From Haloarcula laminariae (GTDB lineage: Archaea; Halobacteriota; Halobacteria; Halobacteriales; Haloarculaceae): a DNA stretch of 64,000 bases. Each line of letters opens with the position of its first letter. Position 1 is the first letter of the stretch. Position numbers and translations under genes: made by a program. This document shows, one piece after another, positions 29,007 through 57,371 of this stretch. Under the pieces are notes generated by a model that was given only the letters and a program-made list of their open reading frames with translations, did no database searches and had not been told where the DNA came from. The stretch spans positions 1 to 64,000 of the forward strand of contig NZ_JAMZFY010000004.1 of the NCBI RefSeq assembly GCF_025457605.1. The letters are read 5' to 3'.

Positions 29007-29159
29007 CGACCGCGCGCACGGACTGGAGCGCCGGACTGCGCTGGCGTGGGTCAGTCTGGCCGGGCGCTGGGCCAGCTGGATGGCTGGGCAGTCGTGATCG
29101 TGGGCCAGCCGGCCAGGCTGGGGAGGCCCAGTGCCCAGATGGCCGTGTCGGCGCGCGGC

Positions 29160-29270
29160 GCCACCGACAGACGTCGCTCCGCTCGCTTGTCGGGTCATCG
29201 CTCGCTGGCGCTCGCGAGGACGACGGGACGCTGCGCTCGGCGCTATCGCGCGCCTCGCTTCGGTCCATCG
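29160..29270. repeat. GC-rich repeat block, copy A
   Basis: The block starting GCGCGGCGCCACCGACAGAC is shared with copies near 31275 and 32900. Copy A and the 32900 copy also share TCGGCGCTATCGCGCGCCTC and TCGGTCCA. The blocks lie between genes on the plus strand, one near the end of each small gene unit. Origin unknown; possibly a cassette boundary. Confidence 0.5.
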
Positions 29271-29370
29271 TGCTCACTCCGTTGCGCGCGATCCCCGCCC
29301 ACGGCGGGAGAGATGGAGCCGCATTCATTCTGTGGTTCGACATCGCGAGAAGTCAGTAGTATCCTCAACG

Positions 29371-31241: not shown

Positions 31242-31345
31242 CTCGGTAACTCGGAATCAGGTGTGTCGTACCAGCGCGCGGCGCCACCGACAGACTCGCT
31301 GTGCTCGTCTGTCGAGCCCTCGCTCGCTGTCGCTCGCAAGGACGA
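31242..31345. repeat. GC-rich repeat block, copy B
   Basis: Shares GTAACTCGGAA and GGTGTGTCGT (31246-31268) with copy C, and CGCGCGGCGCC followed by ACCGACAGAC with copy A. It follows the small gene behind promoter module 2. Confidence 0.5.
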
Positions 31346-31391
31346 CGGCGCACGTCGTGCCAGGAGCCCTCGTCATCGCTGATTGATGCAG

Positions 31392-32869: not shown

Positions 32870-32962
32870 ATGTAACTCGGAAGCGGGTGTGTCGTCACTG
32901 CGCGCGGCGCCGACGGGGCGCTTCGTTCGGCGCTATCGCGCGCCTCACATCGGTCCACCATG
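32870..32962. repeat. GC-rich repeat block, copy C
   Basis: Contains GTAACTCGGAA and GGTGTGTCGT (as in copy B), GCGCGCGGCGCC, and TCGGCGCTATCGCGCGCCTC (as in copy A). It follows the small gene behind promoter module 3, so two of the three units end with such a block. Confidence 0.5.
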
Positions 32963-33469
32963 CCTGCAGTAGCGGGCGTGGTCCCGCCCCGCAGCTGGGG
33001 GCGTCGAGGGCAGAAATCTATGGTTGCTAAGGGGTTCGAATCGGTGGGGCTGCCGGCACTGGTTCGACCGGTCGGACTGATATCCTATGCGGCGACATTC
33101 TGTATTGCTAGCGTGATAGGTTCCGTCAGAAGGTTGGTGGTTCTCGGCAGAATCCTATGGGGCAAGATAAAGAGACACGTTATTCGAAATCTCTCCCTCC
33201 GCAGTCTTGCGATTTGGTGTGAATACGTTGTGTTTACAATGTATTCAGATATACCTTATACCTCCGCTGTCTTGCGATTATCTGCGGATTTTGCAGTGAA
33301 TACATCGTCCAAAATGACTTTACTGGAAATCCTATATTATTTTGGGAGAGTAGTCAGAGATGAGATTATAGATCGGCTCCGTAATAATATAGGGAGCACC
33401 TTTAGAGCAAGTATATATTGGCACCCCAACTAATTAATAGCCTACAGCTACACTGCGTGAGAAACAGAG
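32963..33469. other. Region without convincing gene, before the conjugation operon end
   Basis: A plus-strand frame of 157 residues from 32960 exists, but its composition is basic and hydrophobic and switches to AT-rich halfway, so I do not call it a gene. The AT-rich part (33150-33430) contains the repeated TCTTGCGAT (33209 and 33270) and TGTGTTTACAATG-type sequence. It lies downstream of the coupling-protein gene, and a terminator is not obvious. Confidence 0.4.
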
Positions 33470-36082
33470 TTACATGAATTCGTGGGCGTTGTGATCGTCG
33501 TCCTCATCAGTCTCACTTGTCTCTGTAATATCGTCGTCTTGAGTTGCGGCATCGTCGACAGCTTTTGAGTCACCGTTAATCGTGGACTCAGCTTGACTGA
33601 CAGTGTCATCAGAGAGTTGCTCATCCAGATCGCCAAGAGTGGATTGCTGGTCATCAGACTGAGTGTCCGGGGCAGTGTCCGATGGAGCAGCATCATCTGC
33701 TCTAGGTTCTGCCCCCGATGCGGGGGTTACTGAGTTTGACTCACCATTTGATTCCTCAGCATGCATCGACTCGGATAGTGACGTAGCGTTTGTCCTACCG
33801 GTATCTTGAGCGAAGGGATTTTCGGCAGTGTTCCCTGCCGATGCGGAAAATTCTGACCCGCCTTGAGTGAATGACTCTTCGAATCGCTCGTTGACTCGCA
33901 GTATTTCAGTTCGATCAGTCACAATATCTAGGGTTTGTGTTTCCGAGAGACCGGTCTGGGCCACGATATCGGCGAAGAGCTCTCGTATTTCAGTGGTAGC
34001 TACGGATTCTGGAAGCGTTAAGACTCGGTCGTCAAGCATTGTTGCGATGTCGCGGATAGCGTCGACGTTCTGTTTTTCCGTAATCGGTGGTTCCTGAACG
34101 TCAAGCCGATCAAGCGTCTGTTCCCAGCCACCCTGGGTAAACGTACGATACGGGGTAGCGTCAGTCTCTTTTGCCCAGACTGCTGGGCTGCTATCTGATT
34201 CATCCCCCGTAGTGATCATTTCGCCGTCGATGTCGCCAGAGTCATCGGTGTTATCAGCGTCGTCGGTGTCGCCAGTTAGATCGGCGGCCTTCGACCGAGC
34301 TAGCGCCATCCAGCTGTCGTGGTTCTCCAGATCTTCATCATCCTCGTCTTCGGTACGTGGTGTAGCCGGTGATTCGGCCCCCATCTCGGGGAGATCATCG
34401 CGAACTTCGTGGAGTTCATACGATTGTCCGTGCCACCACGTCGTTCGAGAGACAACGATGCACTCCCCAGGTTCAAAGTCGCGTAGGAGACCAGACGTGA
34501 TCGGTGTTTTGTCCTTCTCCTTGTACGTATCCCGGGACTGGGAGCGAGCCGACTCGTTGCGCCCCTGGTGACTCATCGCGACCATTTCAGTGCGGTCCAG
34601 CTGCCGCCGTTCGCCAAGCTCGTCAAGGACGAACTCGGTCGACTCTGCGTCACCGGGGCCGAAGTAGACGCCCTGTGGACAGTTGCCTACGATGCCAGAG
34701 ATAGTACTGTAGGTATCTTCGAGTTGACCGATTGTCTGAACACCGATCAGCGCACGGGCCTTGTTTTTCCGCCCACGGGCCGTCAGGTTCGTTACCTGTG
34801 TAAGCGACGGCAGCGCATCGATCTCGTCGAGGATGTGGACCGTTGGGTTCGGCGAATTCATCGCGTACCGAATCGACCAGTCAAGCAGCAATTGATACAT
34901 CGGCCCGAGCGTTTCCATTCGCGATGGGTCGGAGTCGATAATCAGCACTCGCCCATCCGGGTTTTTGATGTACTCTTCCAGGGAGAACCGGCCGTAGTCG
35001 GCGAAGTCGTCGACGAAGACTGGGCGAACGTTCTCCCGCAGTGTCTGGTAGACGTTCTGCGCTCCTTTCCCCTTGTCCGGGTCGATATGGCCGGAATCGA
35101 GTCGGTCGTACTCATCGAGTGCCTCTTTGAGTGCGTAGTGGCCCTGATCGAGCAGCGAGACGATATCTGTGTGACAGAGGTCCTGCCGGCGGTTGTTTCG
35201 CTGGGCCTCCAGATGGAGGTACAGCAGCATATCCTGGAATGTCTGCTTCGCTGGCCGATGGAACGGATTGTGGCCGTCAGGTTCCCCGAAGATAGCGCCA
35301 GCCACTTCCCGGAATTCCGATTCACTGTCAGCATCTTGGAACAGATTCCAGACGACATCGCTGTCGGTCGCACTGATACGCTTGACGTCGAACCCGAGGT
35401 CCGTGTAGAATTGCTGGAACTCTTCGCCAGTGTCGTGAGCGATGACCGCAGTATCGCGGTCATAGGGGAACTGGTAGGCTAGTAGCCGCATCATCGATGT
35501 TTTCCCACTTCCAGTCTCACCGATGACAGCCGTCGAGATATCCTGATCGAGGGTCGGCGGCGTGTCGGCATCGTCGTCCTTGTTCGCGACCTCTTCGAGC
35601 GGGACGACTGATTCACCGTCCTCGGAGTCCCAGGGGTTACGAGCAAACATCGCCGGCGATGTCCGGCGGAGTGCATCGCCAGAGAGCGTAAGGACAATCC
35701 CTGTACCGTAGAGTACAACGGTGGTCTGATAGCTCACCAACGGGAGCGAGAGGCCAGGTATCGGATAGCCAGCGAAGAGCCCAGCGAGCGACAACGCAGC
35801 GACGACATGGGCAAACGGGAACAAGAACAACCAGTCGAAGTCGCCGGCGAGTAGTTCAGGGGCGAAGAAAATCGCGCTGACGAGGAAGAAGCCGCTGTAA
35901 ATGTAGCGCCAGGCCCAGAACCGTTTGTGCAGCGGCTTGTCGCTATCGACCCACATAGGTGGGAACAGCAGCATTACCGCGGCCCACAGAAAGGAGGTGA
36001 CATCGTCATACTTGAGACTCTGGGGCACCTCTGCGGACTGTTGTCCGGGCGGAGTGTGTGAGGAATCAGAACTCGAGCTCAT
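33470..36082 (-). CDS. virD4: VirD4/TraG-type coupling protein
   Basis: The coupling protein is a hexameric membrane ATPase that links the relaxase-DNA complex to the secretion channel. The 870-residue protein has N-terminal membrane helices (about residues 58-135), Walker A GETGSGKT (188-195), RVLIIDSDPSRMETLGPMYQ and Walker B VHILDEIDAL followed by SLTQVTNLTARGRKNKARAL, which is the VirD4 pattern. The last 280 residues are acidic and disordered. It is the last gene of the conjugation operon, 6 bp after the relaxase. A complete ATPase core argues for function. Confidence 0.9.
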   Translation of the reverse strand: MSSSSDSSHTPPGQQSAEVPQSLKYDDVTSFLWAAVMLLFPPMWVDSDKPLHKRFWAWRYIYSGFFLVSAIFFAPELLAGDFDWLFLFPFAHVVAALSLAGLFAGYPIPGLSLPLVSYQTTVVLYGTGIVLTLSGDALRRTSPAMFARNPWDSEDGESVVPLEEVANKDDDADTPPTLDQDISTAVIGETGSGKTSMMRLLAYQFPYDRDTAVIAHDTGEEFQQFYTDLGFDVKRISATDSDVVWNLFQDADSESEFREVAGAIFGEPDGHNPFHRPAKQTFQDMLLYLHLEAQRNNRRQDLCHTDIVSLLDQGHYALKEALDEYDRLDSGHIDPDKGKGAQNVYQTLRENVRPVFVDDFADYGRFSLEEYIKNPDGRVLIIDSDPSRMETLGPMYQLLLDWSIRYAMNSPNPTVHILDEIDALPSLTQVTNLTARGRKNKARALIGVQTIGQLEDTYSTISGIVGNCPQGVYFGPGDAESTEFVLDELGERRQLDRTEMVAMSHQGRNESARSQSRDTYKEKDKTPITSGLLRDFEPGECIVVSRTTWWHGQSYELHEVRDDLPEMGAESPATPRTEDEDDEDLENHDSWMALARSKAADLTGDTDDADNTDDSGDIDGEMITTGDESDSSPAVWAKETDATPYRTFTQGGWEQTLDRLDVQEPPITEKQNVDAIRDIATMLDDRVLTLPESVATTEIRELFADIVAQTGLSETQTLDIVTDRTEILRVNERFEESFTQGGSEFSASAGNTAENPFAQDTGRTNATSLSESMHAEESNGESNSVTPASGAEPRADDAAPSDTAPDTQSDDQQSTLGDLDEQLSDDTVSQAESTINGDSKAVDDAATQDDDITETSETDEDDDHNAHEFM

Positions 36083-36088
36083 GATGTC

Positions 36089-36880
36089 TCACCCACCCAT
36101 CGTCCGGTCCATGTCCCGCTCTGGTTCCGGTTCTGGTTCTCGTTCTGGCTCTGGCTCAGGTTGTAGTTCCCGGCTGGGTTCCTCTGGAGTTGTTGTGTCA
36201 GCTTCCCGGCTAAGCACTGATTCCGACTGTCGCTCCTGAGCGCGGGATTTGTCGCGTTTGTTCTCAGATGAGGGTGTGGAAGGCGATGTCTCCTGGGACC
36301 GCGCTCTGTCCTGTAGAACGTCTTTTTCGGGGTGCTCTTCCAGCGACAGCTCGCGCTCATGCAATTCTTCCCGAGCCTCGTCGGATACCGTCTGTGACGG
36401 TGTTTGGGCAGCTGTGTCCGTGCTTGCTTGCGTGGCGCCTCTAGCACGCTCCGCTTCACTATAGACGGTTGCAGCGCGCTCCCGGAGGCGCTCGATTTCA
36501 GCACGGTCCATCTCCAGTTCCGACTCTCGACCCGTAGCAGCGACGTGTGCGTGTGGGAACTCGGTGTCACGGTGGACTGCGTAAACGTACTGGGTAGTCG
36601 CTCGTTGGCCAAACGCTCGATTCATTACCTCCCGAGTATTGGCGCTCACCTCTTCGGGGGTGTACTGTCCCTGGGGATCCGGCGAGACGATTAGATGACG
36701 CTGGAACTGGAATTCACGACTCTTCTCGACGAATCTATTGACTTCGGCTTCGGAGAGCTCTCGGCCTGCCGAGTTTTGGACATCGACAGTACTCTCTGCA
36801 TCTCGCGAGCGATCTCGCTGGATGTAGTCGACGAGATTCCCAGCACTGCCCTCTCGAAAGTCAGTTTTGAGGATCATCAC
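36089..36880 (-). CDS. HUH relaxase (VirD2/MobA-like)
   Basis: A relaxase nicks the transfer origin and stays bound to the transferred strand. In this 263-residue protein Tyr19 (GNLVDYIQRD) is the candidate nucleophile. RHLIVSPDPQGQYTPEEVSA is the typical central strand-helix. The three-histidine metal motif VHRDTEFPHAHVAATG has His103, His110 and His112 and is nearly identical in spacing to VirD2 and MOBP/MOBV relaxases. The C-terminal 120 residues are a charged, Pro-Glu-rich tail with EPEPER repeats. The gene overlaps the upstream ribbon-helix-helix-type gene by 4 bp and precedes the coupling protein by 6 bp. The protein is shorter than most bacterial relaxases, but the catalytic core is complete. 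Confidence 0.85.
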   Translation of the reverse strand: MMILKTDFREGSAGNLVDYIQRDRSRDAESTVDVQNSAGRELSEAEVNRFVEKSREFQFQRHLIVSPDPQGQYTPEEVSANTREVMNRAFGQRATTQYVYAVHRDTEFPHAHVAATGRESELEMDRAEIERLRERAATVYSEAERARGATQASTDTAAQTPSQTVSDEAREELHERELSLEEHPEKDVLQDRARSQETSPSTPSSENKRDKSRAQERQSESVLSREADTTTPEEPSRELQPEPEPEREPEPEPERDMDRTMGG

Positions 36881-37374
36881 CTATCCTCCTCATTCGTGTC
36901 GTTGAGCGCAGTGGACGTCTGGTCCGTGACTGAGTGAGAAGACTGGGCTTCTTTCGATGTTATTGCTGCCTGCATCTCCGAGTCATCGCTAAGATCACAA
37001 CCAATATGCTCAGCGGCACGTTTCAGCGCGGCCTCCTGCTGGGCCGATGAGTAGTCGTCTTTGAGTAGGTGCCAAAGGGCCAAAACATAGACTGTCCGAA
37101 TGCGCTGGATTCGATCTAATCTGGCCCCACTCTCAGACTGGAAATTGGAGAGGATTGCGGTAGCTTCGTCACGGATCTGGTCGAGGGCCAACTCTATTTG
37201 TTGGTCAACCCCATATCGGCCGTATTGCTGCCTATCTTGTTCTCGATCAATATGCTCGGTGATTACTTGGTCACAATATTTTGAGAGGGATTGACCTGCA
37301 GCTTCGGCTTGGTCGGTGAGCCACTCTTCTTTCTCATCAGTCGTGTAGAATTGGATTATCGTATCTCGTGTCAT
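36877..37374 (-). CDS. Ribbon-helix-helix-type relaxosome protein, copy C
   Basis: The 165-residue protein opens with DTIIQFYTTDEKEEWLTDQA and AEAAGQSLSKYCDQVITEHI, the strand-helix-helix pattern of MobC/Arc-like DNA-binding proteins. The middle part, VYVLALWHLLKDDYSSAQQE, has counterparts in the two paralogues upstream. Its start overlaps the previous stop by 1 bp (TAATG), and the stop overlaps the relaxase start by 4 bp. It probably binds the transfer origin and helps recruit the relaxase. Confidence 0.7.
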   Translation of the reverse strand: MTRDTIIQFYTTDEKEEWLTDQAEAAGQSLSKYCDQVITEHIDREQDRQQYGRYGVDQQIELALDQIRDEATAILSNFQSESGARLDRIQRIRTVYVLALWHLLKDDYSSAQQEAALKRAAEHIGCDLSDDSEMQAAITSKEAQSSHSVTDQTSTALNDTNEEDR

Positions 37375-37763
37375 TAGGTATCACCTCCCTCTTTTTCAGC
37401 CAGTCCTTCGAGCTCTTCCTCCAGCGTGGCAGGCGCCTTTTTGAGCGCCTGAGTACGCTCATTCCCAGAGAACTCGCTCCCGAGGAGTTCCCAGAGCGCT
37501 ATCCCGTACAGAGATTCCTGTTGGGTATTGATATCCGTAGCAGTCGACACCTCTGCAATGATATCCGTTTGTAGCTCATCTAAACGGCTCTCAATATCTA
37601 AGTCATCGATACGCTCAGCCTCTGCTTCCCGAGCGATCTGCTGTTCGATCGCCATTAGACAGTACTCTGAGACGCTTGTATCGTGTTTTTCGGCCTGCGC
37701 CTCGATTCGCTGTTTTTGCGCTATATTGTCTGGGTAAATCGAAATGTGTGGTGTCTCACTCAT
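37374..37763 (-). CDS. Ribbon-helix-helix-type relaxosome protein, copy B
   Basis: From the ATG at 37763 (MSETPHISIYPDNIAQKQRI) the protein has 129 residues. The N-terminal strand HISIYP and helices EAQAEKHDTSVSEYCLMAIE correspond to the ribbon-helix-helix of its neighbours, and SLYGIALWELLGSEFSGNER to their second conserved part. The start overlaps the stop of copy A by 8 bp; a start at 37775 is also open. It is the shortest of the three paralogues. Confidence 0.65.
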   Translation of the reverse strand: MSETPHISIYPDNIAQKQRIEAQAEKHDTSVSEYCLMAIEQQIAREAEAERIDDLDIESRLDELQTDIIAEVSTATDINTQQESLYGIALWELLGSEFSGNERTQALKKAPATLEEELEGLAEKEGGDT

Positions 37764-38343
37764 CGGCATCACCACCAGTGCCGTCAGCCATGAACTGGGC
37801 TGGACCCAGTGTCTCGTCAGTGTCGGCGTCTGTGTCCTGTTTGTCTGCCACCTGAGTTCTTTTACTCCCAGTAGAGCGGCTCCTGTACCGGGCTGGATCC
37901 ACTTCTCCAGTTGCAGTCGTGTCTCTCCATTTCTCTCCGGTCTGGGGTCCGTTGGGAACCAGATTTAGATCCTCGCCAATGTAGTCCTGGGCCAGTCGCA
38001 TCGCAAACTGGCGTTCCTCGTTCGAGTATTCACCCGCGACCAGCCGCCAGAGCACGAGCAGATGGAGGCGGCCTGGCTCATATTCTACCGCGGTCTCGCT
38101 GGCTGTTTCACCCCAGAACTCTCGTAACAGGATGTCGGTCTCGTCGTAGACGTCGTCGACGACCGTCTGCAATCGTTCAGAGTCATCGTATGGGTACTCT
38201 TTGTCGTCGCTGATGATGTCGATGTGTTTCTGGATGAGCTCATGGACGTACTCCGATAGCGAACAGTCCAGCTCCTCAGTACGGTCTTCCAGCCATCGTT
38301 TGTTCTCTTCGGTCGTATGGATCTGAAATGTCGAATCCTTCAT
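37756..38343 (-). CDS. Ribbon-helix-helix-type relaxosome protein, copy A
   Basis: The 195-residue protein starts MKDSTFQIHTTEENKRWLED and RTEELDCSLSEYVHELIQKH, again strand, helix, helix, and has HLLVLWRLVAGEYSNEERQF as the second conserved part. A disordered tail follows. Its ATG overlaps the stop of the 42-residue gene by 4 bp. Three tandem members suggest a heteromeric complex or separate binding sites at the transfer origin. Confidence 0.68.
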   Translation of the reverse strand: MKDSTFQIHTTEENKRWLEDRTEELDCSLSEYVHELIQKHIDIISDDKEYPYDDSERLQTVVDDVYDETDILLREFWGETASETAVEYEPGRLHLLVLWRLVAGEYSNEERQFAMRLAQDYIGEDLNLVPNGPQTGEKWRDTTATGEVDPARYRSRSTGSKRTQVADKQDTDADTDETLGPAQFMADGTGGDADE

Positions 38344-38468
38344 CGTTCACCACACTCCTGGGCAGTCCCAGTCTGTCCACGAAACACCTTGGCGTCGATC
38401 CCTACAGGGGGTGCTACAGGTGTATCAGCCGGCTCTCCGGGCTGAACCGTCGGCTCTCGCTCACTCAT
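38340..38468 (-). CDS. 42-residue peptide in the conjugation operon
   Basis: The frame MSEREPTVQPGEPADTPVAP (first 20 residues) ends with ...CGER. Its ATG overlaps the virB4 stop, and its stop overlaps the next start by 4 bp. This double overlap with both neighbours is strong evidence that it is translated. It is Pro-rich and unrecognised; it could be a small accessory or linker peptide, or serve just for translational coupling. Confidence 0.6.
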   Translation of the reverse strand: MSEREPTVQPGEPADTPVAPPVGIDAKVFRGQTGTAQECGER

Positions 38469-41400
38469 TGTCATCACCGCTGGCAGTCGTCTTGTCTTCC
38501 GTACTCCAAATCCCGTTGCCCTCTGGATCGAACGTCACCGTTCGCTTGTCATCACCCGGGACACCGGGCTCAGACTGTCTCTCCGATGGCTGTAGATTGG
38601 ACCCTGTCGTCCCGGACGTCTCTGACTCTGTCACTTCCAGCATGCCGTCCGTCGAGGACGAAGTTCGTTCCTGTGAGACTGAGGTGCGTTCGTCGGTGCC
38701 AGCTAACGCACCGCCGTCGGCAACCGCTTTCGAGGGCATCTGTCGGTCGAGGGCCACGGAGACTATCTCCACCAGTTCGTCTTCACTCAGTTCGTTCAGC
38801 AGCTTTTCAGCCCGTTCCGGTGTGAGTCCATGAACCTGCGTCAGTTCATGTTCCATCGCCTCAGTGTACACGAACTGTTCGAACTGCTGGACCTTCGGCG
38901 ATACCTGATCTGCGAGTTCGTCGAGGACATCTCGACCGTGAGCATCGAGATCGATGACACGCTTTTCCTCCCACGACGTCCGGATAGTCAGCGGGTAGTC
39001 GCCGTGCTCGTCGACCCGAACGAGAGCTTGAGAATACCCCTGACCGTCGCCGATGGACTCTTTGCCAGCCTCGGCTGTCTGGATGTAGTACTGCTGTTCG
39101 CTGGTCAGGCCGGCCTTCTTGGCGGTGTGGTCGCCCAGGTCCGGCTCGCGATGGTGGACCATGATCGGACACATCCCCGCTATCTCTTCGGCGACACCGT
39201 TGTCGTAGAACTCCTGGAGCGTCTGGGAGAGCATCACCAGCCGTAGCCCGGCGTGTCGCTGGTGGCGAGCAATTTGGTTGAGGAACGCCAGATTGGCGTC
39301 ATCGTTGAATAGGTAGTGGGCCTCGTCGATGATGATCTCCACTTTCGAATCCATGTTCTTGGCCTGCTGGTACAGTGTCGACAGCAGCAGCTGCATGATG
39401 AACGACTGTTTGCCCAGACCATCGCCAGTGCCTTCGACCTGCTGGAGGTCGAGATAGACTGCCTTGCTCGAATCGTCGATGAGCTTCATGTCCGACGCCT
39501 GCGAGAGATTCCCGTACGTACTGCCCTCACGGAACGGATGCAGCGCGACCGAGAGCTCATCGGCATATTCCCGGATTTTCTGACGCGAGGAGTCCGTGGT
39601 CGCGCCGGGGAACATTCCGGGGCTGTCCTGCAGTCGGTCCAGCAGGTCCAGGAAGTCCTGCATGTTGGGCGAGTTCTCGGGTGTGTGCGTCGACGGATCA
39701 TCGGGCTCGATATCGGATTCTGCGAAGATCGTATCGATGATGAACGTGATCAGCCCACTGTGCATTTCCAGCTGGACGTCACGGGCTTCGAGGAAGTTCT
39801 CGATGACCCCGTAGACTTCGTCTTTCTTCGCTGCGACAGGCTGCATGTCCGGCGATTGCTCTAGGATATGCTCCGGCGTCGGGTGCATCTCGCAGGGATT
39901 GAGCGGCGTCTCACCGCTGACGGTAATCGTCTTCGCGTCCAGCATTTTCGCGCTGCCGCGCATATCTCCGACCGGGTCGATGTAGACCTGCTTGACGTCG
40001 GGCCGTTTCTTCATCATCCGCATCGCCCGTGCTTGCGTGCCGTGCGTTTTCCCGCCCCCAGGCATCCCCGTCACGAGCTCAGAGTGGCCGGTTTCGAGGT
40101 CCCATGGGTCGATCAGCAACGAGGAGTTGTTGTGCCCATGGGTTCCGTACTCGATACCGTTCTCCATGCGGAGGTAGTTCGACGAGAACGGGAACAACGA
40201 CCCCAGTGCCTCGCTGGTCATCGACGAGAGACGATCTTTCCCGAGCTCGTTCGCCCCGATTGGCGAGACAGTCACCAGACCGTCCTCTTGTCGGCGGGTG
40301 GCCCGCTTGATGCTACAGTTCGCGGGCGAGTCCCGGAGCACGCTTTCGAGCTGGTTCGTCCGTCGACGGAGTTCCTCTTCGCTCTCGGCAGTGATACGGA
40401 CAAACACGCCAGCGCGGAATAGCGACGTGTGATTACGCCGGACCATCTGCCGGATGAACTTGGCCTGGTTCACATCTTGTTGGATGTCTTCCGCTTGAAT
40501 CTGGCCCTGGTCATCCTGAACGACCTGCAGGGAGGAGATCCATTTCTCCATGACCGTCAGTGCCTCCTGCGTGTCGTACGGGTCGATGTGAATGGACACG
40601 TCGGCACGAAGGTCCGTATCCAGCAGCAGGCGTTCGAGCAGCCCGTTTGACGGTTCTTCGGGGAAGGTTTCGACCCAGAACGTTCGGGCGTAGGTCTCTT
40701 GGTCGATGAATGCATGATCCTCGGCCCAGTCGATGGCCGTGGGTGCGACCAGCGACTGGTGTTCGTGGCCAGGATTCGATACACCGTGGGGAACCTCCAC
40801 AGCTTCATCGATACCTCTCGTCTCGCTATCAGTCCCTTCGGCAGTTGCATGGTTCTCGAGCATCTCGCTGGCGCGAGCGAGCTCTCTATCGGAGTACGTA
40901 ATCGGCGAGATATCGGCTGCCTGCTCGATATCACCGAACTGCCGTGGCTCACAGGCCCAGTAGTCCTTGGTAAGCTGGGCGAGCTTGTACGACGATACGG
41001 GCTCGCTTCGACACCGATAGAGACTGTCGACCGAGCGAGCGACTCTGGAGAGTCGGTCGTGGAGTTTCTTGGCCTTGTGTTCCTCTCGCTCCCCGGCAGT
41101 CAGTCCGTTGCTCCCGACACTGGAGACCAACTCACCCACCACCGGAAGGTCTTCAAGGTAGTTCGCAACAGACGCGTCATCACTGACGAGGTCCTCAATC
41201 TCGGCATCGGTGACTGTGACGATGATGTAGTATTCGCGTTGCATCTCGGTCTCGGCGACGATTTCGCCATCATCGTCGGTATGTCGGTTGAGCCACTCCA
41301 TGAGGACCCCCCGGAAGATGGAGTGGTTCTGTGTATCGGCATCCTCGAGCCGCTCTTTGTGGGCCTTGATATGCTCCGTGTTGTCAGCATCTCGCGTCGT

Positions 41401-41922
41401 GACGTAGATCTTGGCGGTACCTTCCAATGAGTTAACCATCTCAGTCAGGGACTGGACAGCGTTCTGCCACTGCTCACCGTCTTCGAGGGCCATGTTGGCT
41501 GGCTGGACCTCGACGGCCCCGACGTAGGCGCCGTCGACCCGCTCGATTCCGTGGGGCATGATGCGTTTCAGCCGGGTAGCATTCCGAGTGTCCTGGGCCC
41601 CATCGTCGACGGTGTGTTCCTCTTCTTTGACCCGCCAGAACGCCCGGACACGAAGCCACTCAGTCAGCCGGTAGTAGTTCGGCCGGACTGCTCGCAGCGT
41701 GAAGAGGCCGACCTCAGCCAGAACCAATCCGAGCAGCGCCGGGAGGGTCACACTGGCTGGGACGAACGGCATTCCCAAGACGAGTACAAACAGGAAGACG
41801 GGAGCAGCGAACAGGAGCAGTTCACCGAGGGTATATCCGCCCCAGAACTCGGTCGTATCCCCGAGTGAGCCGTGGATGATGTTCGTACTGTACTGCTGTG
41901 TGCTCTGTTGTGCTTGTGCCAT
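38461..41922 (-). CDS. virB4: VirB4-like conjugation ATPase with N-terminal membrane part
   Basis: VirB4 powers assembly of the conjugative channel and pilus. The 1153-residue protein has two membrane helices near residues 33-77 (LLLFAAPVFLFVLVLGMPFV and beyond), a possible fused VirB3-like part, then the VirB4 N-terminal region and an ATPase core: Walker A GMPGGGKT (619-626), Walker B VEIIIDEAHY (861-870) and the later LVMLSQT. The C-terminal 100 residues are disordered. The ATG at 41922 was chosen: it is 7 bp after the VirB6-like stop and upstream residues are not protein-like. Confidence 0.92.
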   Translation of the reverse strand: MAQAQQSTQQYSTNIIHGSLGDTTEFWGGYTLGELLLFAAPVFLFVLVLGMPFVPASVTLPALLGLVLAEVGLFTLRAVRPNYYRLTEWLRVRAFWRVKEEEHTVDDGAQDTRNATRLKRIMPHGIERVDGAYVGAVEVQPANMALEDGEQWQNAVQSLTEMVNSLEGTAKIYVTTRDADNTEHIKAHKERLEDADTQNHSIFRGVLMEWLNRHTDDDGEIVAETEMQREYYIIVTVTDAEIEDLVSDDASVANYLEDLPVVGELVSSVGSNGLTAGEREEHKAKKLHDRLSRVARSVDSLYRCRSEPVSSYKLAQLTKDYWACEPRQFGDIEQAADISPITYSDRELARASEMLENHATAEGTDSETRGIDEAVEVPHGVSNPGHEHQSLVAPTAIDWAEDHAFIDQETYARTFWVETFPEEPSNGLLERLLLDTDLRADVSIHIDPYDTQEALTVMEKWISSLQVVQDDQGQIQAEDIQQDVNQAKFIRQMVRRNHTSLFRAGVFVRITAESEEELRRRTNQLESVLRDSPANCSIKRATRRQEDGLVTVSPIGANELGKDRLSSMTSEALGSLFPFSSNYLRMENGIEYGTHGHNNSSLLIDPWDLETGHSELVTGMPGGGKTHGTQARAMRMMKKRPDVKQVYIDPVGDMRGSAKMLDAKTITVSGETPLNPCEMHPTPEHILEQSPDMQPVAAKKDEVYGVIENFLEARDVQLEMHSGLITFIIDTIFAESDIEPDDPSTHTPENSPNMQDFLDLLDRLQDSPGMFPGATTDSSRQKIREYADELSVALHPFREGSTYGNLSQASDMKLIDDSSKAVYLDLQQVEGTGDGLGKQSFIMQLLLSTLYQQAKNMDSKVEIIIDEAHYLFNDDANLAFLNQIARHQRHAGLRLVMLSQTLQEFYDNGVAEEIAGMCPIMVHHREPDLGDHTAKKAGLTSEQQYYIQTAEAGKESIGDGQGYSQALVRVDEHGDYPLTIRTSWEEKRVIDLDAHGRDVLDELADQVSPKVQQFEQFVYTEAMEHELTQVHGLTPERAEKLLNELSEDELVEIVSVALDRQMPSKAVADGGALAGTDERTSVSQERTSSSTDGMLEVTESETSGTTGSNLQPSERQSEPGVPGDDKRTVTFDPEGNGIWSTEDKTTASGDDNE

Positions 41923-41929
41923 AGTTTGA

Positions 41930-43744
41930 TTAGGTGTTCGGGGAGTCGTCTCGCGGTCGATACGCATCGGGACCGAGCACGTCGTCATCGGTCGCGAACA
42001 AGTCTTTGGCGTTGGCAGCCCCACCCGTTGCAGGCGAGTCACCATCGTCGCCAGCATCGGTGGTCGGAGCGGCCCCAGCTGCGGGATCGTCATCGTCAGC
42101 ACTGTCTACTTGACCAGCAGCACTGTCGACGTCCGAGGGGACCTGCGCTGCATCATCAGGGGGCGAACCGTCCTCAACAGTGGTTCCCTCATCGAGCAGG
42201 TCCCAGTAGCGGACAGTGTCGCCAAGGTCAGGAGCGTCTGATTCCGCTGCCGAACCCCGCCCTGTGTCAGGCAGACGGCCTTGAGCGGGAGGGCCGGCAG
42301 GTTCAGGCGGCCGGGAGCCGCTGGGGTCTGATGTCGGATTTGGAGCGGTCCGAATTGCGTTCTCAGGGCCTGGGTCAGATGGGTCTGGACCTGCTGTTGG
42401 GCCAGGGTCGGAGGCTCCAGAACCGTTCGAGCCACCGAAGTTCGCGTTCGACAGGCCTCGATGGAGATTCATAGCGCCATAGGCCGCCCGACCAATACGA
42501 CCCTTCGCAGCGTTCCCCAGCGCGCTGAAACCGCCAGCCGCGCTCAGTGCTCCCCCAGACCCTGCGACTGCGCCGGCACCGGCGGTCGCAGCACCGGCGC
42601 CAATTGCTGCCGAGGCCTTGGCAGGTTTCTTCACCGACTGTTTCGCTCCGCCGAGGGTCTGCTCGCTCACCCGCACCGCAGTCCGACTGCTCCGAACAAT
42701 CATCTCTTTTTGAGCCTTCGCTGCCAGGAAGATCGTGGCGATAGAGGCCAGTGCGGTGAGCCCCTCAGGCAGACCCCATGCGTCTGTTTCAAAGCTTATC
42801 CTGAAGAGGACAGCTGCTGGGATGCCACCCGCCAAAGCCCCAGGGTATGCGCCAGCAATTTGCTTAGCGAGTCCAGCGAACCGATTGAACGGCCATACTT
42901 CTAGCGGCCAGAAGGCCGCCACAAGCGGCATACACAGCGTTAGCAATATAATCAGTATCCAGCGGACAATCGCGATAAATATCGCTTTCAGGTATACATA
43001 AAGGCCAACGAGAACAAGGATCGCAAGCAGTCCCGGGTTTTTCACCGAAATCTCTGTAATCGAATACAAGGTGTTTACAACCTTGTCAATATCGTACCCA
43101 GAGAAAACGATTTGTCGGGCAAGAATATCGAAGAATTGCGTCGCGAGAGACGCAGCAGGTAGCCAGAGGAAAATCGCGAAGAACACCATCACGACTCGCC
43201 GGCCGACCTGTTTGCGGACCACTGGATCCATCGACTTGTATCGCAGGCCGACAGCAGCTAGTGTGATGAACTGGAGACCGAGAGCTAAACCGACAATTCC
43301 CTCAAAATAGACATTCGAAATAAGTCCACTCCAGGGATCATTAGTGGCGCCTGTGAACGCTATCTCAAGCGGTCCTGCAACAGTGTCACCCTTAGGTGAT
43401 GGAGTCTCCACTAAAGGCGTGATGAGGGCTCTGAAGAAAGATCTGAATGCGTTCTGTACCCCAGTTGCGAGCCCCTCAAGGAACGCATCAATGCCAGCTT
43501 CTATGGGATTTTCGAGTACGCTCTCGGTGAATACCTGTGTTTTGAGGTCCTCGACTAACTTGGTGAGGAATTTCGGGATGAAATCATCGATGAAATCCTG
43601 AACCGATGGCACATCGACGTTAACATCGACATCTCCGACGCCCCCTCCATCGCCACCGTCACCATTACCATCGCCACTGTCACCTCCTCCACCATCACCG
43701 CAACCAGGAAAAGGATCAGGACAAGGGACTTGCCTCTGGCTCAT
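41930..43744 (-). CDS. virB6: VirB6/TrbL-like polytopic channel protein
   Basis: A 604-residue membrane protein with a Gly/Asp-rich N terminus, several hydrophobic segments in its middle (from VYFEGIVGLALGLQFITLAA through LTALASIATIFLAA), and an Ala/Gly-rich then acidic disordered C-terminal half. This build and the place directly before virB4 match VirB6/TrbL proteins, which form the inner-membrane channel of type IV secretion. The sequence itself is divergent. The start overlaps the preceding lipoprotein stop by 4 bp. Confidence 0.75.
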   Translation of the reverse strand: MSQRQVPCPDPFPGCGDGGGGDSGDGNGDGGDGGGVGDVDVNVDVPSVQDFIDDFIPKFLTKLVEDLKTQVFTESVLENPIEAGIDAFLEGLATGVQNAFRSFFRALITPLVETPSPKGDTVAGPLEIAFTGATNDPWSGLISNVYFEGIVGLALGLQFITLAAVGLRYKSMDPVVRKQVGRRVVMVFFAIFLWLPAASLATQFFDILARQIVFSGYDIDKVVNTLYSITEISVKNPGLLAILVLVGLYVYLKAIFIAIVRWILIILLTLCMPLVAAFWPLEVWPFNRFAGLAKQIAGAYPGALAGGIPAAVLFRISFETDAWGLPEGLTALASIATIFLAAKAQKEMIVRSSRTAVRVSEQTLGGAKQSVKKPAKASAAIGAGAATAGAGAVAGSGGALSAAGGFSALGNAAKGRIGRAAYGAMNLHRGLSNANFGGSNGSGASDPGPTAGPDPSDPGPENAIRTAPNPTSDPSGSRPPEPAGPPAQGRLPDTGRGSAAESDAPDLGDTVRYWDLLDEGTTVEDGSPPDDAAQVPSDVDSAAGQVDSADDDDPAAGAAPTTDAGDDGDSPATGGAANAKDLFATDDDVLGPDAYRPRDDSPNT

Positions 43745-44640
43745 GAGTCAGTTGATTTTGTGGGGGAGACAGTTGGTGATCCAGTCAGCGAACCGCAATG
43801 AGTACCGTTAGTCGAATATGTGATGGTTTGAGAGACGCTCAATATGTTCGCCCAGAGGGACGAAATAGTAAATTCGAGCTTTCGCTCCGTATTATCTGGA
43901 CAACCGATCCCCTTCCATATGCTGAGTGGCACTGTTGCTGCACCCGTACTGTCGGGCTTGATAACTGAGAACTCAGACGCTAGTCTCTGCCCGGCTGCAT
44001 CGTTACCAGGGACATTCGCGTACTGAATGATTCCCGGAGAAGTAGGATGTGGGCCCGTGTTTTTGAGGACGATAGCCAAATCTAGGTCATCTACACCGTC
44101 AACTGATTCGCCCCACGCAACTCGTTGGACTTCGACAGAAGTGCCAAGCCGGAGTGGAATTCGTTCATCGTCTTTGTCGGTTTCTTCGGTAAGGTTGACA
44201 ACGATGGTATTTTCACCAGAAGTTATCGCCTCAACTTCTGGTGGCTCCTCGCTGTACTCATTATCCGCCCCGTCAGCAAGGGTAAGTGTCGCCTTTCCCT
44301 GTTCAGGAAATGCTAATGTGTACTCATTGTCTCGTGCATCCAATAGATCTATAGTGACTATATCCACCGAGTTTTGGAGTTCTAACTCTAATGATAGCTC
44401 CAAGCCATCAGCCACGAAACTGCTGTCAGTGATATACTCCGACTGCTCTTCTGGCGGGACCCAGCCTTCAGCACCGGACTCATCACCAGAACTACCTCCA
44501 GTCGATGGAGGTGGGGATTCTGGAGACCCTGAAGACGGTGAGTCAGAACACCCCGCCAGCGCGGTCAGGCCACCGCCAAGGAGTGTCAACGCTGTTCGTC
44601 GGTCGATACTGTCGCTGTATGAGTGTGGGTTCTGTGTCAT
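43741..44640 (-). CDS. Tat-exported lipoprotein of the conjugation operon
   Basis: A 299-residue protein with a twin-arginine signal (SIDRRTALTLLGGGLTALAG) and a lipobox ending in Cys (LAGC), so it is exported folded and anchored by a lipid. A Ser/Pro/Gly-rich linker follows, then a beta-sandwich-like domain (LELSLELELQNSVDIVTIDL and so on) like those in surface or adhesion-type proteins. It might help cell contact or stabilise the channel outside the membrane. It overlaps both neighbouring genes by 4 bp. Confidence 0.8.
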   Translation of the reverse strand: MTQNPHSYSDSIDRRTALTLLGGGLTALAGCSDSPSSGSPESPPPSTGGSSGDESGAEGWVPPEEQSEYITDSSFVADGLELSLELELQNSVDIVTIDLLDARDNEYTLAFPEQGKATLTLADGADNEYSEEPPEVEAITSGENTIVVNLTEETDKDDERIPLRLGTSVEVQRVAWGESVDGVDDLDLAIVLKNTGPHPTSPGIIQYANVPGNDAAGQRLASEFSVIKPDSTGAATVPLSIWKGIGCPDNTERKLEFTISSLWANILSVSQTITYSTNGTHCGSLTGSPTVSPTKSTDS

Positions 44641-46352
44641 GGTTCGTACCAGCCGAGGAATTTTCCTCTTGTGAGGATGTCAAAGCCGTACAGCAGCAGA
44701 TAGAGCGGCAGGAACACCAGCCCAGTAATGACGATGAAGTCGATAATCTCGCGAATCGCAGGCAGATTCGCTGTGTCAAGGAAGGACCCGTTCGTCGCCA
44801 ACGCTGGATAGGTCCGGGACTGGTCCCACCACGGAGCGGGCGGCTCGTACCGCAGTCTTCCCCTCCGAACTCTCGCTTGATCCAGTTCGACTACCACTTT
44901 CCCACCATCGGCCGGCGTCAGCCGCCGTTCAACACGGGTCTCACGAGTCGTGAGGATAATCCGCCCACGCTTGAGGGGCGCGCCAGCCCGTGGACGTATC
45001 GATACTCGCAGTCGAGTCCCAGCGTCACTCGTGTTCAGCACCTGCGCGGTGAGATTCACTTCGTAGGCAGTCGGTGGCTCACTGGTGTTCACTGAGACGT
45101 TTACTGACCGACCACGGACGAGACCGTAGACGGTGAACTTGCCGGCGTCACGAAGCGAGCGGGAACTATGGAGCGTAAATCGGTTGGCCGTCGTCGAGTT
45201 GTCCGCTCGGTCTAACTCGATTTCCGGTGGGAGCGACGGCTGCGGTGCCATCGCTGTCTCCGGATATGTGAGGTCAACGGGCACGTCACGAGACTGGGTC
45301 GCCCCATCATCCGTTGGGTTGAGCCACTCGTAGGTGAGTTCAGGGCTCGCAGTTACCGGCACTGCATGCACTTCGTAGGGGGCAATCGGCTGCCACTCCG
45401 GCGCCACAGTGCTGGGTTCCGTAGCTGTCGTCTCCCAGTCGACCCACCCATCACCGTTGCGAGTGTAGTAGTACCATTGGCTGTGAGCACGCAGTCCATT
45501 GTCGAACTGCACTCGATGCCACAACCCAGGTACAGACAGGGTCAGCGCACTGTCGGTTCGAGTCGTTCCAGTCTCGTTGCGCCAGGCCAGCTGGCCGGAC
45601 ACACCGAGTCCGGAGAGATCCTGGACCCGGACCGTTTCCGAGTCGGTCACCGCCATCGTGTACGACCGAACGTGGTTGTCGGCGGGTTGTACCGTCCCCG
45701 TGAGTCGAAGCCGCACTGTCAGATTCGTTGTCCCGGACAGCCCGCGGTACTGTAGTTCGGGTGTCAACGACGACGACGTATCTACGACAGTTCCGTTGGC
45801 CAGCAATTCGACCTGACCGCCAAGACCGGTGAGATTCGCCCCGACTGGGCTCGTAGTGGAATTGAGCAGCCGGTCATTGAGTCGGAAATTCGACACAGCC
45901 CGGACGGTGCCGTTCGGACTCCCGTAGCGCTGCTTGCCCGCTCGGGAATGGACGATGGTCGAGGGCGTAATCGAGAAAATCTCGGTATACACCTCACTGA
46001 AGAGCCGCCCGTCGATGTCTGTCGAGGACTGTAACCGACAGCAAGACTCCCAACTCACGTGCGAGGGTCGGGCCGAAAAGTTCGCTCCGCCAGTGCTGTA
46101 GCGACCGACATATCGATCGTTCCAGGACGTCACGTTCGGTGGGCGTGATTGGGCACTCTCGGTGCGATTGGCAGCAGGCTGTTGTGCAGCTCGGAGCGTC
46201 GGTGTTCCGTTAGCTGTCCGATTCTCCGCTTGCTGCTGAACGATGGGCGACACTCGCTCAGTCTGTAGTCCCACTCCCGAAGCAACGACTGTCGGCGTCG
46301 TCACTACCAGACAGACCAATACCGGCACCAACACCCGGAGTGGAACGGACAT
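44637..46352 (-). CDS. Secreted, sequon-rich membrane-anchored protein
   Basis: A 571-residue protein with an N-terminal signal peptide (VPLRVLVPVLVCLVVTTPTV), a large outside domain with more than ten N-glycosylation sequons (NRT, NGT, NFS, NLT and others) and a C-terminal membrane anchor (IDFIVITGLVFLPLYLLLYG). It is unrecognised in family terms, but placement and architecture suggest a surface protein that mediates mating-pair contact. It lies 12 bp after the pilin-like gene and overlaps the lipoprotein start by 4 bp. Confidence 0.7.
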   Translation of the reverse strand: MSVPLRVLVPVLVCLVVTTPTVVASGVGLQTERVSPIVQQQAENRTANGTPTLRAAQQPAANRTESAQSRPPNVTSWNDRYVGRYSTGGANFSARPSHVSWESCCRLQSSTDIDGRLFSEVYTEIFSITPSTIVHSRAGKQRYGSPNGTVRAVSNFRLNDRLLNSTTSPVGANLTGLGGQVELLANGTVVDTSSSLTPELQYRGLSGTTNLTVRLRLTGTVQPADNHVRSYTMAVTDSETVRVQDLSGLGVSGQLAWRNETGTTRTDSALTLSVPGLWHRVQFDNGLRAHSQWYYYTRNGDGWVDWETTATEPSTVAPEWQPIAPYEVHAVPVTASPELTYEWLNPTDDGATQSRDVPVDLTYPETAMAPQPSLPPEIELDRADNSTTANRFTLHSSRSLRDAGKFTVYGLVRGRSVNVSVNTSEPPTAYEVNLTAQVLNTSDAGTRLRVSIRPRAGAPLKRGRIILTTRETRVERRLTPADGGKVVVELDQARVRRGRLRYEPPAPWWDQSRTYPALATNGSFLDTANLPAIREIIDFIVITGLVFLPLYLLLYGFDILTRGKFLGWYEP

Positions 46353-46364
46353 ACGTGCTTATGA

Positions 46365-46829
46365 TCAGGCGAGGGGGTTCACACAGTCGCTGAACGTGAA
46401 ATTCGCTTGATTGGCGAATTTGCTGATGAGTTCAGGGGAGACAATTGCCAGCAGAATCACCCCAAACCCAGTCATCGACAGGATGAGGTCCTTTCGGGCC
46501 TCATTTTGCTGGTTGGGGTTGCCCGACGCTCGCATATACGAGAGCCCAGAGCGACCGACGTAGAACATCGTCGTTGGGAGTCCGAGTCCAACCAACGCTC
46601 CAAACGTGACATCAAGGAGCCCTTCGACACTGGTGCCACAGTAGGTGTCTCCGAACGTCGTCTGGGCCATTGCGGTCCCGCTAAACAGGAGCAGGACTAG
46701 CGAAAACTGGGCGGCTCGTCTAAATGTGGTGTTCGTGGTAGCCTGTGCGGCCCGAAGTTTGGCATGTGCAGCGAGTGATCGGAGTGATATTGAGTGCGAT
46801 GCGTCCGTACTGCGAGGGCTGTTGCTCAT
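46365..46829 (-). CDS. VirB2-like pilin candidate
   Basis: A 154-residue protein with a long basic N-terminal extension, a signal-peptide-like segment ending at about residue 56 (AQFSLVLLLFSGTAMA followed by QTT), and then two hydrophobic helices (LLDVTFGALVGLGLPTTMFY and LILSMTGFGVILLAIVSPEL). After cleavage a two-helix protein of about 98 residues with two Cys remains, the design of VirB2/TrbC pilins. Being first in the operon also fits. No sequence-level match can be shown here. Confidence 0.6.
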   Translation of the reverse strand: MSNSPRSTDASHSISLRSLAAHAKLRAAQATTNTTFRRAAQFSLVLLLFSGTAMAQTTFGDTYCGTSVEGLLDVTFGALVGLGLPTTMFYVGRSGLSYMRASGNPNQQNEARKDLILSMTGFGVILLAIVSPELISKFANQANFTFSDCVNPLA

Positions 46830-47214
46830 GGATTTCTCTCGTTGGATGGTGGTTGCTTACTGTGCGATGCATTCGAGGACTACACCCGGTCAGGGGACGG
46901 GCTTCATTACCTTAGTATTCTTATTAGTGATAGTTTCCCCACGTTCACATCACCTATCTCGGGATACTTCTTTTCGGACTAAAAAGTTTTAGTTTCAATT
47001 TTCCCTGAGCCATATATTACGTAGTAATATAGAGAACGGTCTTCTAAGACCTCAAAAGTGGGTTTAATTATAATCGAATATTTTATATTAGTATACTATT
47101 GTATATTTTTTCTGAAATAATAATCTATAGGCAAAATAAAAGTCAGCATTAGAATAAATGCTGTTCTGAATGGCTACTTGAAAAATAAGGTTGCACCGAT
47201 ACTGCGTCGGTTCC
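46830..47214. other. AT-rich region upstream of the conjugation operon (possible oriT)
   Basis: No gene. From about 46970 to 47190 the DNA is very AT-rich. A perfect inverted repeat, ATATTAC-GTA-GTAATAT (47014-47030), lies in its middle, and CAGCATT/AATGCTG (47144-47163, 6-nt loop) lies 52 bp downstream of the integrase stop. The region must hold the operon promoter and is a reasonable place for a transfer origin or attachment site, but no nick motif can be recognised. Confidence 0.4.
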
Positions 47215-50191: not shown

Positions 50192-50736
50192 GACCGGCCG
50201 TAATCCCTTGGTAACTACGCAGTTCTACTAATTGGCTGTTTCATTTGAATTTCGTCGAAGAAATCGGTACAACAGAGCCACCAAAACAGCAATCTGTGTT
50301 GGCTGTAGATTGTATCCGTATTTGGTTTCATGGGGGTCCACGGGTCTCGGTTAGGAAGTCCTGGTACTGAACGGAGATTGGGTACACGTAGTTGGGGGTG
50401 GTTTGAAGAATCTGGGATAGCGTAGGGGGGCTTCGCTCTCACTGAGTCACACTCGTTTTTTCTCCGGTTATCCACATGACGGCCGCAATTCATTCGGCGT
50501 AGGCAAAGTTGAGAACCGGTTATCAGGAGGCTCGCTGCCTTTTGATCAAATTTTTGTCGCACGACGGCGAGCATCCGCGTGGCGTGTCCCGCGCTCTCCG
50601 GATAGTGGTCGACCGCGATGGGTATACCCCGACTGGTACCCGCGTAGCCGTAGCTTCCGAGTCAAGGGCAGGAGAGTGCGACACGGCAACACACGGACAT
50701 CACACTGTTTATGGCCGCACGCGAAAACGACTGGAT
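50192..50736. other. Gene-free region, possible insertion-sequence remnant
   Basis: No intact gene. The minus strand between 50560 and 50215 has degenerate frames with protein-like pieces that could be the tail of an old transposase, but no motif allows a name. A TATA-like CTGTTTATGG (50704-50713) lies about 25 bp upstream of the dehydratase ATG. Confidence 0.3.
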
Positions 50737-53431: not shown

Positions 53432-53727
53432 CGTACTCCCGATTCTCCCCACATCACTATAAGCCCAACTGAAATTTGATTCAAACTGATTCTTGACCTA
53501 TATCGAATTATGGCTACAACTGATTCTCTAAGTACAGCGCGTATACCCCTTGATATGTCTCTATCTACAAGCTTAGAACAGATAATCGACGACAATGATC
53601 AACTATATTTTTACTATACTCTATACAGTTCTTCGCTCCTACTCAGTAGATATTTCTATACAGAATCATTCCAGTATTGGGCCGACCACAACTCAGAAGC
53701 GGAGTGGTTCGCCCTGGAGGTGGCTCA

Positions 53728-57333: not shown

Positions 57334-57371
57334 AATATGGAATGTTCTTTGCAACTACTAATAATTAGCGT

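Follow-up and report, generated by a model that had tools for sequence, protein, structure and literature searches.

A Haloarcula operon encoding a MOBP-type relaxase, VirB4 and VirD4, with a candidate oriT beyond it: the likely transfer region of a conjugative plasmid

We analysed a 64,000-nucleotide window (positions 1 to 64,000) of contig NZ_JAMZFY010000004.1 of Haloarcula laminariae, in which eleven tightly spaced open reading frames run on the minus strand from 46829 to 33470, neighbouring genes overlapping or sitting no more than 12 bp apart. The contig is 101,936 bp in length and encodes its own Orc1/Cdc6; no overlap was found between its ends and circularity is therefore unproven. Members of this operon family are mostly located on plasmid-sized replicons. 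The genes and the features beyond virD4 are listed in operon order, a slash marking the predicted nick.

46365-46829, minus: VirB2-like pilin (PF18895, E=2.3e-4, and matches of its homologues)
44637-46352, minus: surface protein with signal peptide, Ig/FN3-like beta-sandwich domains and C-terminal transmembrane helix
43741-44640, minus: Tat lipoprotein with beta-sandwich domains, RR and lipobox C31 invariant in the alignment
41930-43744, minus: VirB6-like polytopic membrane protein, assigned by position and hydrophobic segments only
38461-41922, minus: VirB4 ATPase (start corrected from 42102; NF045971 conju_CD1110, 2.5e-47)
38340-38468, minus: lineage-specific 42-residue ORF, shared only with locus L041 (64%)
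37756-38343, minus: RHH-type protein 1, a lineage-specific paralogue aligning to the RHH3 orthologues of other loci
37374-37769, minus: RHH-type protein 2, probable relaxosome accessory (NikA-like, 0.007), in all class A loci
36877-37374, minus: RHH-type protein 3, probable relaxosome accessory (NikA-like, 2.6e-4)
36089-36880, minus: MOBP-type relaxase, 263 aa (PF03432, E=1.4e-9; catalytic motifs)
33470-36082, minus: VirD4/TrwB-like coupling ATPase (TrwB_AAD_bind PF10412, 1e-31)
33264-33276, minus: oriT candidate direct repeat 1, CGCAAGACAGCGG, preceded by AAT
33220-33247, minus: inverted repeat between the direct repeats, TGAATACATTGT-aaac-ACAACGTATTCA
33199-33211, minus: oriT candidate direct repeat 2, CGCAAGACTGCGG, preceded by AAAT
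33162-33171, minus: candidate nic TTTATCTTG/C, predicted nick at 33163/33162 on the operon-sense strand
27738-28883, plus: OB-fold protein, possibly binding ssDNA (PF01336, E=0.0029, under cut-off)

The eleven packed minus-strand genes of the original prediction were all recovered in place, with a correction to the VirB4 start. The VirB4 reading frame opens at GTG 42102; homologues begin to align only near residue 60, and the start is therefore likely to be ATG 41922, which sits 7 bp past the VirB6 stop and gives a protein of 1153 aa. The operon genes are under purifying selection, every dN/dS value obtained being below 0.3. The conserved core excludes the first RHH gene and the 42-residue peptide, both of which are restricted to the window and to L041, the locus most closely related to it. 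A palindrome at 47012-47032 is present in the same two loci only, a restriction for which it was rejected as a general operator. For most operon proteins, sequence searches against PHROGs and PDB yielded nothing informative.

Profile searches confirm that relaxase, coupling protein and VirB4 are encoded together in the operon. The PF03432 domain of the relaxase scores 38.7 bits against a curated score of 24.6, above the gathering cut-off, and carries LVDYI with the catalytic Tyr and HRDTEFPHAH with three His residues (H-x6-H-x-H). The Tyr and three His are present throughout the class A alignment; the Pro before the second His differs in three class A loci and the later His positions in some class C loci. 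The protein is short with a low-complexity tail, and its dN/dS is 0.08-0.14 (five pairs). Its identity as a MOBP-type relaxase is established by sequence, while nicking and covalent 5' attachment are inferred. VirD4 aligns by sequence to the TrwB crystal structure (1.6e-5) and also matches CD1115, scoring lower than with TrwB/TraD-type profiles. The RHH identity of the three small proteins is weak and their relaxosome roles are inferred: the first has its own orthologue only in L041 and no direct profile match, and the third is kept in all class A and some class C loci.

Among the channel proteins, the pilin has a signal peptide ending in AxA, a mature length of about 100 aa and two invariant cysteines. 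Its own match to T4SS_pilin PF18895 (21.6 bits) falls under the gathering cut-off of 26.6; however, all 23 homologues match this profile at E<=0.01 (best 3.7e-10) and 4/23 match TrbC/VirB2, profile matches through which the VirB2-like identity is confirmed. The surface-protein gene is kept at the same position in class A and class B loci, and its AF2 model (pLDDT 62) matches only generic beta-sandwiches; it is possibly an adhesin or stalk, a role that is inferred, as is that of the lipoprotein (AF2 pLDDT 77) in transfer. Either protein was considered as a VirB8 and rejected, as both models are beta-sandwiches with generic matches and no specific relative. No VirB8-like part was recognised in the operon, and profile searches of the operon found no gene or credible match for a VirB1-type cell-wall hydrolase, an absence expected because there is no peptidoglycan. 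The VirB6-like protein gave no match in profile searches; its gene is kept between the lipoprotein gene and virB4. The assignment rests on position and hydrophobic segments, and the role is inferred.

The best VirB4 profile, conju_CD1110, is matched under its equivalog cut-off, and the placement derives from profile scores with no tree including bacterial VirB4 behind it. The ATPase motif GMPGGGKT is intact. Matches of 2.5e-47 to CD1110 compare with 0.033 for CedB and 0.002 for CedD; Ced/Ted components are thus not the best match. An N-terminal two-TM segment matches PF11990 (DUF3487) weakly in 4/9 homologues (best 0.037), and it may represent a fused VirB3-like part. VirB4 relatives were not found in viral contigs. 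A second VirB4-like gene, 32% identical, is located on another contig, C3.

The operon is colinear in 23/23 relaxase-selected Haloarcula loci and in 10/10 VirB4-selected loci of Haloarcula type, two partly overlapping sets, and the VirB4s accompanied by a relaxase form one clade (support 100/100). Class B loci of other haloarchaea retain the pilin-surface-lipoprotein-VirB6-VirB4 order and carry another VirD4, and no relaxase was detected in 30/30 of them. Conversely, relaxase-VirD4 modules also exist without channel genes (class C). The system is modular, the channel being separable from the relaxase/VirD4 part.

These results bear on the remaining claims of the original prediction, which would have been refuted by a lack of relaxase, VirB4 or VirD4 profile matches or if the genes never occurred together elsewhere; matches to all three and the shared gene order rule out both outcomes. 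That the relaxase and two ATPases were clear from motifs held, as did the pilin-like gene, through its homologues. The claim of three RHH-type proteins held in part, with weak NikA-like matches for two and only paralogy for the third. The suggested structure prediction of the surface protein yielded no more than the generic fold given above. 'Minimal' failed as overstated because the 42-residue peptide and first RHH gene are lineage-specific extras, and 'complete' can only be inferred, given that the operon has no recognised VirB8-like or VirB1-like component. A self-transmissible element is supported by sequence; self-transfer was not shown. Missed altogether was the presumed target of the relaxase.

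This candidate oriT lies about 300 bp beyond virD4 and consists of two direct repeats followed by the nic candidate. The first direct repeat has a mean identity of 0.86 across 11 divergent loci compared with 0.44 for other 11-mers, the control applying a coverage rule against gap columns; the most conserved block is the MOBP-nick-like motif, not the repeats alone. TTTATCTTG has no other match on the 102-kb contig. In 23/24 class A loci, those with the relaxase operon, TTTAYCTTGY is present exactly once, in operon-sense orientation and at a distance of 276-357 bp beyond virD4, against 0.05 loci expected from shuffles, and the 24th locus has a one-base variant, TTTAACTTGC, at the same place. These statistics overstate independence because class A loci are related. 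The repeat+nic composite was detected at 22 sites in 391 haloarchaeal genomes, all in Haloarcula (0 with a reversed-pattern control), and was not found in genomes with only the relaxase-less channel. Two of the sites lack a nearby relaxase match; oriT-only hitchhikers were dropped as an explanation since both also sit just past a virD4, one in a partial copy and one at a contig end. Four class C relaxases are preceded by TTTANCTTGC at a distance of 525-595 bp. The relaxase-less class B loci gave only two nic-motif matches, both within the virB4 reading frame.

Relative to the MOBP nick consensus (C/T)ATCCTG(C/T) (PMC3772185), TATCTTGC agrees at 7/8 bases and the TACCTTGY of some loci at 6/8. 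Inverted repeats abutting nic are typical of MOBP oriTs. Such a repeat is significant (p<=0.01) in only 5/20 sites and, by this test, not in the window, and a hairpin 5' of nic is unsupported as a general feature; where the window has its inverted repeat, L041 carries a hairpin with another sequence. The OB-fold gene keeps its side and orientation in all 15 loci that were checked, and its homologue in pNG500 is annotated as SOSS complex subunit B family. The conservation of the site is shown; that it is the oriT at which the relaxase cuts is likely as part of the best overall explanation, nicking itself being inferred.

The pilin-to-VirD4 gene order is the same in pNG500 of Haloarcula marismortui, pNYT1, pHH126 and other Haloarcula plasmids. 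VirB4 is ~69% identical between the window and the pNG500 group and the relaxase ~55% overall and 68% over its catalytic part, the window differing by an additional RHH gene and the 42-aa ORF. pNG500 was listed in 2011 as the one archaeal conjugative plasmid (PMC3158045) but is typed non-mobilizable by PLSDB/MOB-suite; PMC6333295 mentions the relaxase of pNYT1. Likeness to the MPF_FATA systems of monoderm bacteria (CD1110/CD1115 family ICEs) extends from VirB4, closest to conju_CD1110, and VirD4, which matches CD1115, to the pilin type, which matches Mbov_0395-type and PF18895 profiles. Those systems differ in that the window operon has no detected VirB1 hydrolase or VirB8-like part, and its surface protein and Tat lipoprotein are without a profile. 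MOBP relaxases such as RP4 TraI and VirD2 share PF03432 and the Tyr and three-His motifs with the window protein, which is short in comparison, and the nic-like TATCTTG/C is near their consensus, its core differing at one or two positions. In the class B systems of Natrinema, Halorussus and others, VirB4 is ~45-50% identical; where examined, the genes that follow encode an unknown protein of ~380 aa, a TraG/VirD4-like ATPase of another kind and, in many cases, a protein with an NrS-1-polymerase-like domain. Sulfolobales conjugative plasmids, pT33-3 and Ced/Ted also use VirB4-like ATPases and DNA transfer has been shown, Ced importing chromosomal DNA, but they are reported without a recognisable relaxase (PMC9905601, PMC12857230).

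We consider the operon likely to be the transfer region of a Haloarcula conjugative plasmid, with transfer, nicking and direction inferred. A monoderm-type channel would be formed by the VirB2-like pilin, surface protein, lipoprotein, VirB6-like protein and CD1110-like VirB4, and bacterial-style DNA processing would be provided by the RHH accessory proteins, the small MOBP-type relaxase, the TrwB-like VirD4 and their own oriT. The two CGCAAGA repeats are predicted to be recognised by the RHH proteins together with the relaxase, whose tyrosine would cut the nic candidate on the operon-sense strand and remain on the 5' end. VirD4 would then deliver the nucleoprotein to the channel, which VirB4 powers. 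The OB-fold gene side would leave first and the transfer operon last; the former would thus be first to enter the recipient, where the T-strand would serve as template. We found no report of transfer experiments with these plasmids in the literature searched, and self-transfer between cells remains inferred and unproven.

Other explanations were weighed against this reading. The secretion system may no longer mobilise the plasmid, being co-opted for Ced-like DNA import, protein delivery or killing with the relaxase a relic or regulator. Haloarchaea commonly carry relatives that have this channel but no relaxase, and archaeal Ced systems do import DNA (PMC9905601). Against this, purifying selection acts on the relaxase and VirD4 as it does on the channel genes, conservation extends to the candidate oriT beside them, the VirB4 profile is far from CedB and the operon is mostly on plasmid-sized replicons; co-option is thus unlikely. 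It is similarly improbable that the plasmid is mobilisable only, its own channel defective and another cellular system needed. The second VirB4-like gene on C3 and the existence of channel-less relaxase-VirD4 modules favour this possibility; against it, all channel genes are open with dN/dS under 0.3 and the VirB4 ATPase motif is undamaged.

Alternatively, the site past virD4 could be an RHH-bound centromere or operator, or part of a replication origin, with transfer perhaps proceeding from another site. RHH partition or repressor proteins often bind direct repeats, and ParA genes are present on the contig. However, these lie more than 20 kb away (10926-11729, 56458-57354) whereas the RHH genes adjoin the relaxase, conservation is strongest at the MOBP-nick-like motif rather than the repeats alone, class C relaxases have a similar motif that is placed differently, upstream of the relaxase gene, and the composite is missing where only the relaxase-less channel occurs. 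We regard this explanation as doubtful.

Papers of 2023 and 2024 considered archaeal relaxases unknown and a 2025 review found none identified on known archaeal conjugative plasmids (PMC9905601, PMC11389934, PMC12857230). This kind of system is partly known because the relaxase-bearing pNG500 was flagged in 2011; the oriT candidate and the module swap appear undescribed in the literature searched. In a bolder reading, towards which we incline by a narrow margin, haloarchaea possess relaxase-driven, oriT-based conjugation with an interchangeable RHH-relaxase-VirD4-oriT module, one channel being served in Haloarcula by a relaxase and in Natrinema and others by a different ATPase module that has none, and stand-alone relaxase modules with a similar nic being hitchhikers. 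The operon and its relatives show that a bacterial-style relaxase is retained in archaea alongside a mating channel, together with a candidate nick site that is conserved. Haloarcula species can be cultured and are genetically tractable, and relaxase-led single-strand transfer in archaea is therefore testable at a named base. As relaxase-bearing and relaxase-less systems are paired on one channel type, the role of the relaxase could be isolated.

The original prediction of a conjugation operon proved right: its eleven ORFs all lie on the minus strand as described, the VirB4 start being probably better placed at 41922, while all function, transfer and nicking included, remains a prediction only. 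The relaxase matches PF03432 at 1.4e-9, over the cut-off, and a catalytic-type tyrosine (LVDYI) and H-x6-H-x-H are conserved across class A, the Haloarcula locus type. VirD4 matches TrwB_AAD_bind (1e-31) and, by sequence, the TrwB structure, VirB4 matches the conju_CD1110 profile (2.5e-47), and the ribbon-helix-helix (RHH) proteins give weak NikA-like profile matches. T4SS_pilin is detected in 23/23 pilin homologues and TrbC/VirB2 in 4. The surface protein is modelled as a beta-sandwich with low confidence (pLDDT 62) and a C-terminal membrane helix, and the lipoprotein has beta-sandwich domains with twin arginine and lipobox cysteine both invariant. VirB6 had no match in profile searches, its identity being inferred from sequence alone by position and hydrophobicity. 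Upstream of the operon, a near-perfect palindrome, CTATATTACTACGTAATATAT (47012-47032, minus strand), and a TATA-like element, CTTTTTAG, are common only to the window and its closest relative, locus L041, and could represent an operator/promoter.

The window spans bases 1-64000 of contig C4. This contig, 101,936 bp within a 3.69-Mb genome whose kin are Haloarcula, is probably a plasmid because it carries its own Orc1/Cdc6 gene and two ParA-like genes; a terminal overlap was looked for and none was found. Named Haloarcula plasmids include pNG500 (132,678 bp) and pNYT1 of H. taiwanensis (129,893 bp). Genes outside the operon include:

20003-21103, the contig's own Orc1/Cdc6 gene
23188-26067, minus strand, 960-aa protein without Pfam match, 52% identical to proteins near class A operons L050 and L057
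47218-48483, minus strand, 422-aa protein upstream of the pilin gene, without Pfam match, 94% identity in L041; its place corresponds to that of the Cdc6 gene in pNYT1
50509-52506, plus strand, IlvD/Edd gene (dihydroxy-acid/6-phosphogluconate dehydratase family), near a transposase (53677-55458)

Haloarchaeal loci fall into three classes. Class A order, pilin-surface-lipoprotein-VirB6-VirB4-RHH-RHH-relaxase-VirD4, is kept in 23/23 relaxase-chosen loci (two cut by contig ends) and 10/10 VirB4-chosen loci, two overlapping sets. Class B (Natrinema, Halorussus, Haloferax elongans and others) shares the first five genes, followed, where examined, by a ~380-aa unknown protein and a TraG/VirD4-like ATPase, with no relaxase detected in 30/30 VirB4-chosen loci, some cut by contig ends. 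Class C loci, without class A channel genes, have a relaxase that is accompanied in most cases by VirD4 and in some by an RHH gene. Homologues of the window relaxase and VirB4 occur in 33 and 261, respectively, of 391 sampled Halobacteria genomes, and PF03432 is rare in the phylum (7/393 genomes). Relaxase-bearing VirB4s form a single clade in a maximum-likelihood tree (100/100 support), so that one module switch suffices, its direction being unsettled. No dN/dS value obtained reaches 0.3 (relaxase 0.08-0.14, five pairs). These observations provide evidence that channel and DNA-processing modules evolve as separable units.

Other loci were also observed. At L079 (genome G342, contig C15), RHH, relaxase and VirD4 genes form a stand-alone module that includes a nic-like site abutted by an inverted repeat, possibly an archaeal mobilisable element; the same genome carries a full class A operon (L052). 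At L061, L075 and L080, the VirB4 neighbouring the relaxase and VirD4 is distant (23% identity), and these loci may represent another relaxase-bearing archaeal transfer system. The source genome has a second VirB4-like system (contig C3, 8848-11716; L037, L038; 32% identity), of a type common across haloarchaea.

Alignment of the window with its closest relative revealed conserved repeats in non-coding DNA past virD4, a candidate oriT. Typically, two copies of AAATCGCAAGAYGGCGG lie 64-77 bp apart, with TTTAYCTTGY ~40-50 bp further. This motif occurs exactly once in 23/24 class A sequences, on the operon-sense strand 276-357 bp past the virD4 stop (shuffled control, mean 0.05 loci); the 24th has TTTAACTTGC instead. 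In eleven divergent loci, identity is 0.89 for the motif and 0.86 and 0.79 for the repeats, compared with a mean of 0.44 and maximum of 0.57 for other 11-mers. The composite pattern gave 22 sites in 14/391 genomes, all Haloarcula, and its reverse none in the same 391; sites unexplained by a relaxase match also lie just past a virD4. Two class B matches, both within the virB4 reading frame, are likely chance. Among class C loci, four have TTTANCTTGC 525-595 bp upstream of their relaxase, and two have it farther away. MOBP relaxases cut at (C/T)ATCCTG(C/T) (PMC3772185), from which TATCTTGC departs at one base. A hairpin adjoining nic is not general across sites. DNA just past the candidate nic (32900-33230), together with further copies (29096-29298 and 31274-31349), matches several places in L041 and makes up an uncharacterised family of dispersed repeats.

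MOBP systems suggest by analogy that the relaxase nick would fall between 33163 and 33162 and that DNA on the 3'-ward side, pointing away from the operon, would be first into the recipient. In 15/15 loci checked, an OB-fold gene (27738-28883, plus strand, in the window) lies on this predicted entering side at a distance of 2.1-9.4 kb from nic, and its template would be the transferred strand. Leading-region SSB genes of bacterial conjugative plasmids are typically oriented for transcription off the transferred strand (PMC11541004). The placement fits the proposed direction of transfer, a tentative reading, as a shared plasmid backbone is an alternative.

pNG500 was the sole archaeal conjugative plasmid in a 2011 relaxase/T4CP/VirB4 survey (PMC3158045), and a pNYT1-type relaxase was mentioned in 2019 (PMC6333295). 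Later literature, namely Beltran 2023, an essay of 2024 and a review of 2025 (PMC9905601, PMC11389934, PMC12857230), nevertheless treats archaeal relaxases as unknown or unidentified, and PLSDB's MOB-suite typing lists most of these Haloarcula plasmids as non-mobilizable. No description of an archaeal oriT or module swap was found in the literature searched, which excluded subscription papers and preprints, and priority is unproven. Beyond the original prediction, the analysis adds a candidate nick site and evidence for separable channel and DNA-processing modules.
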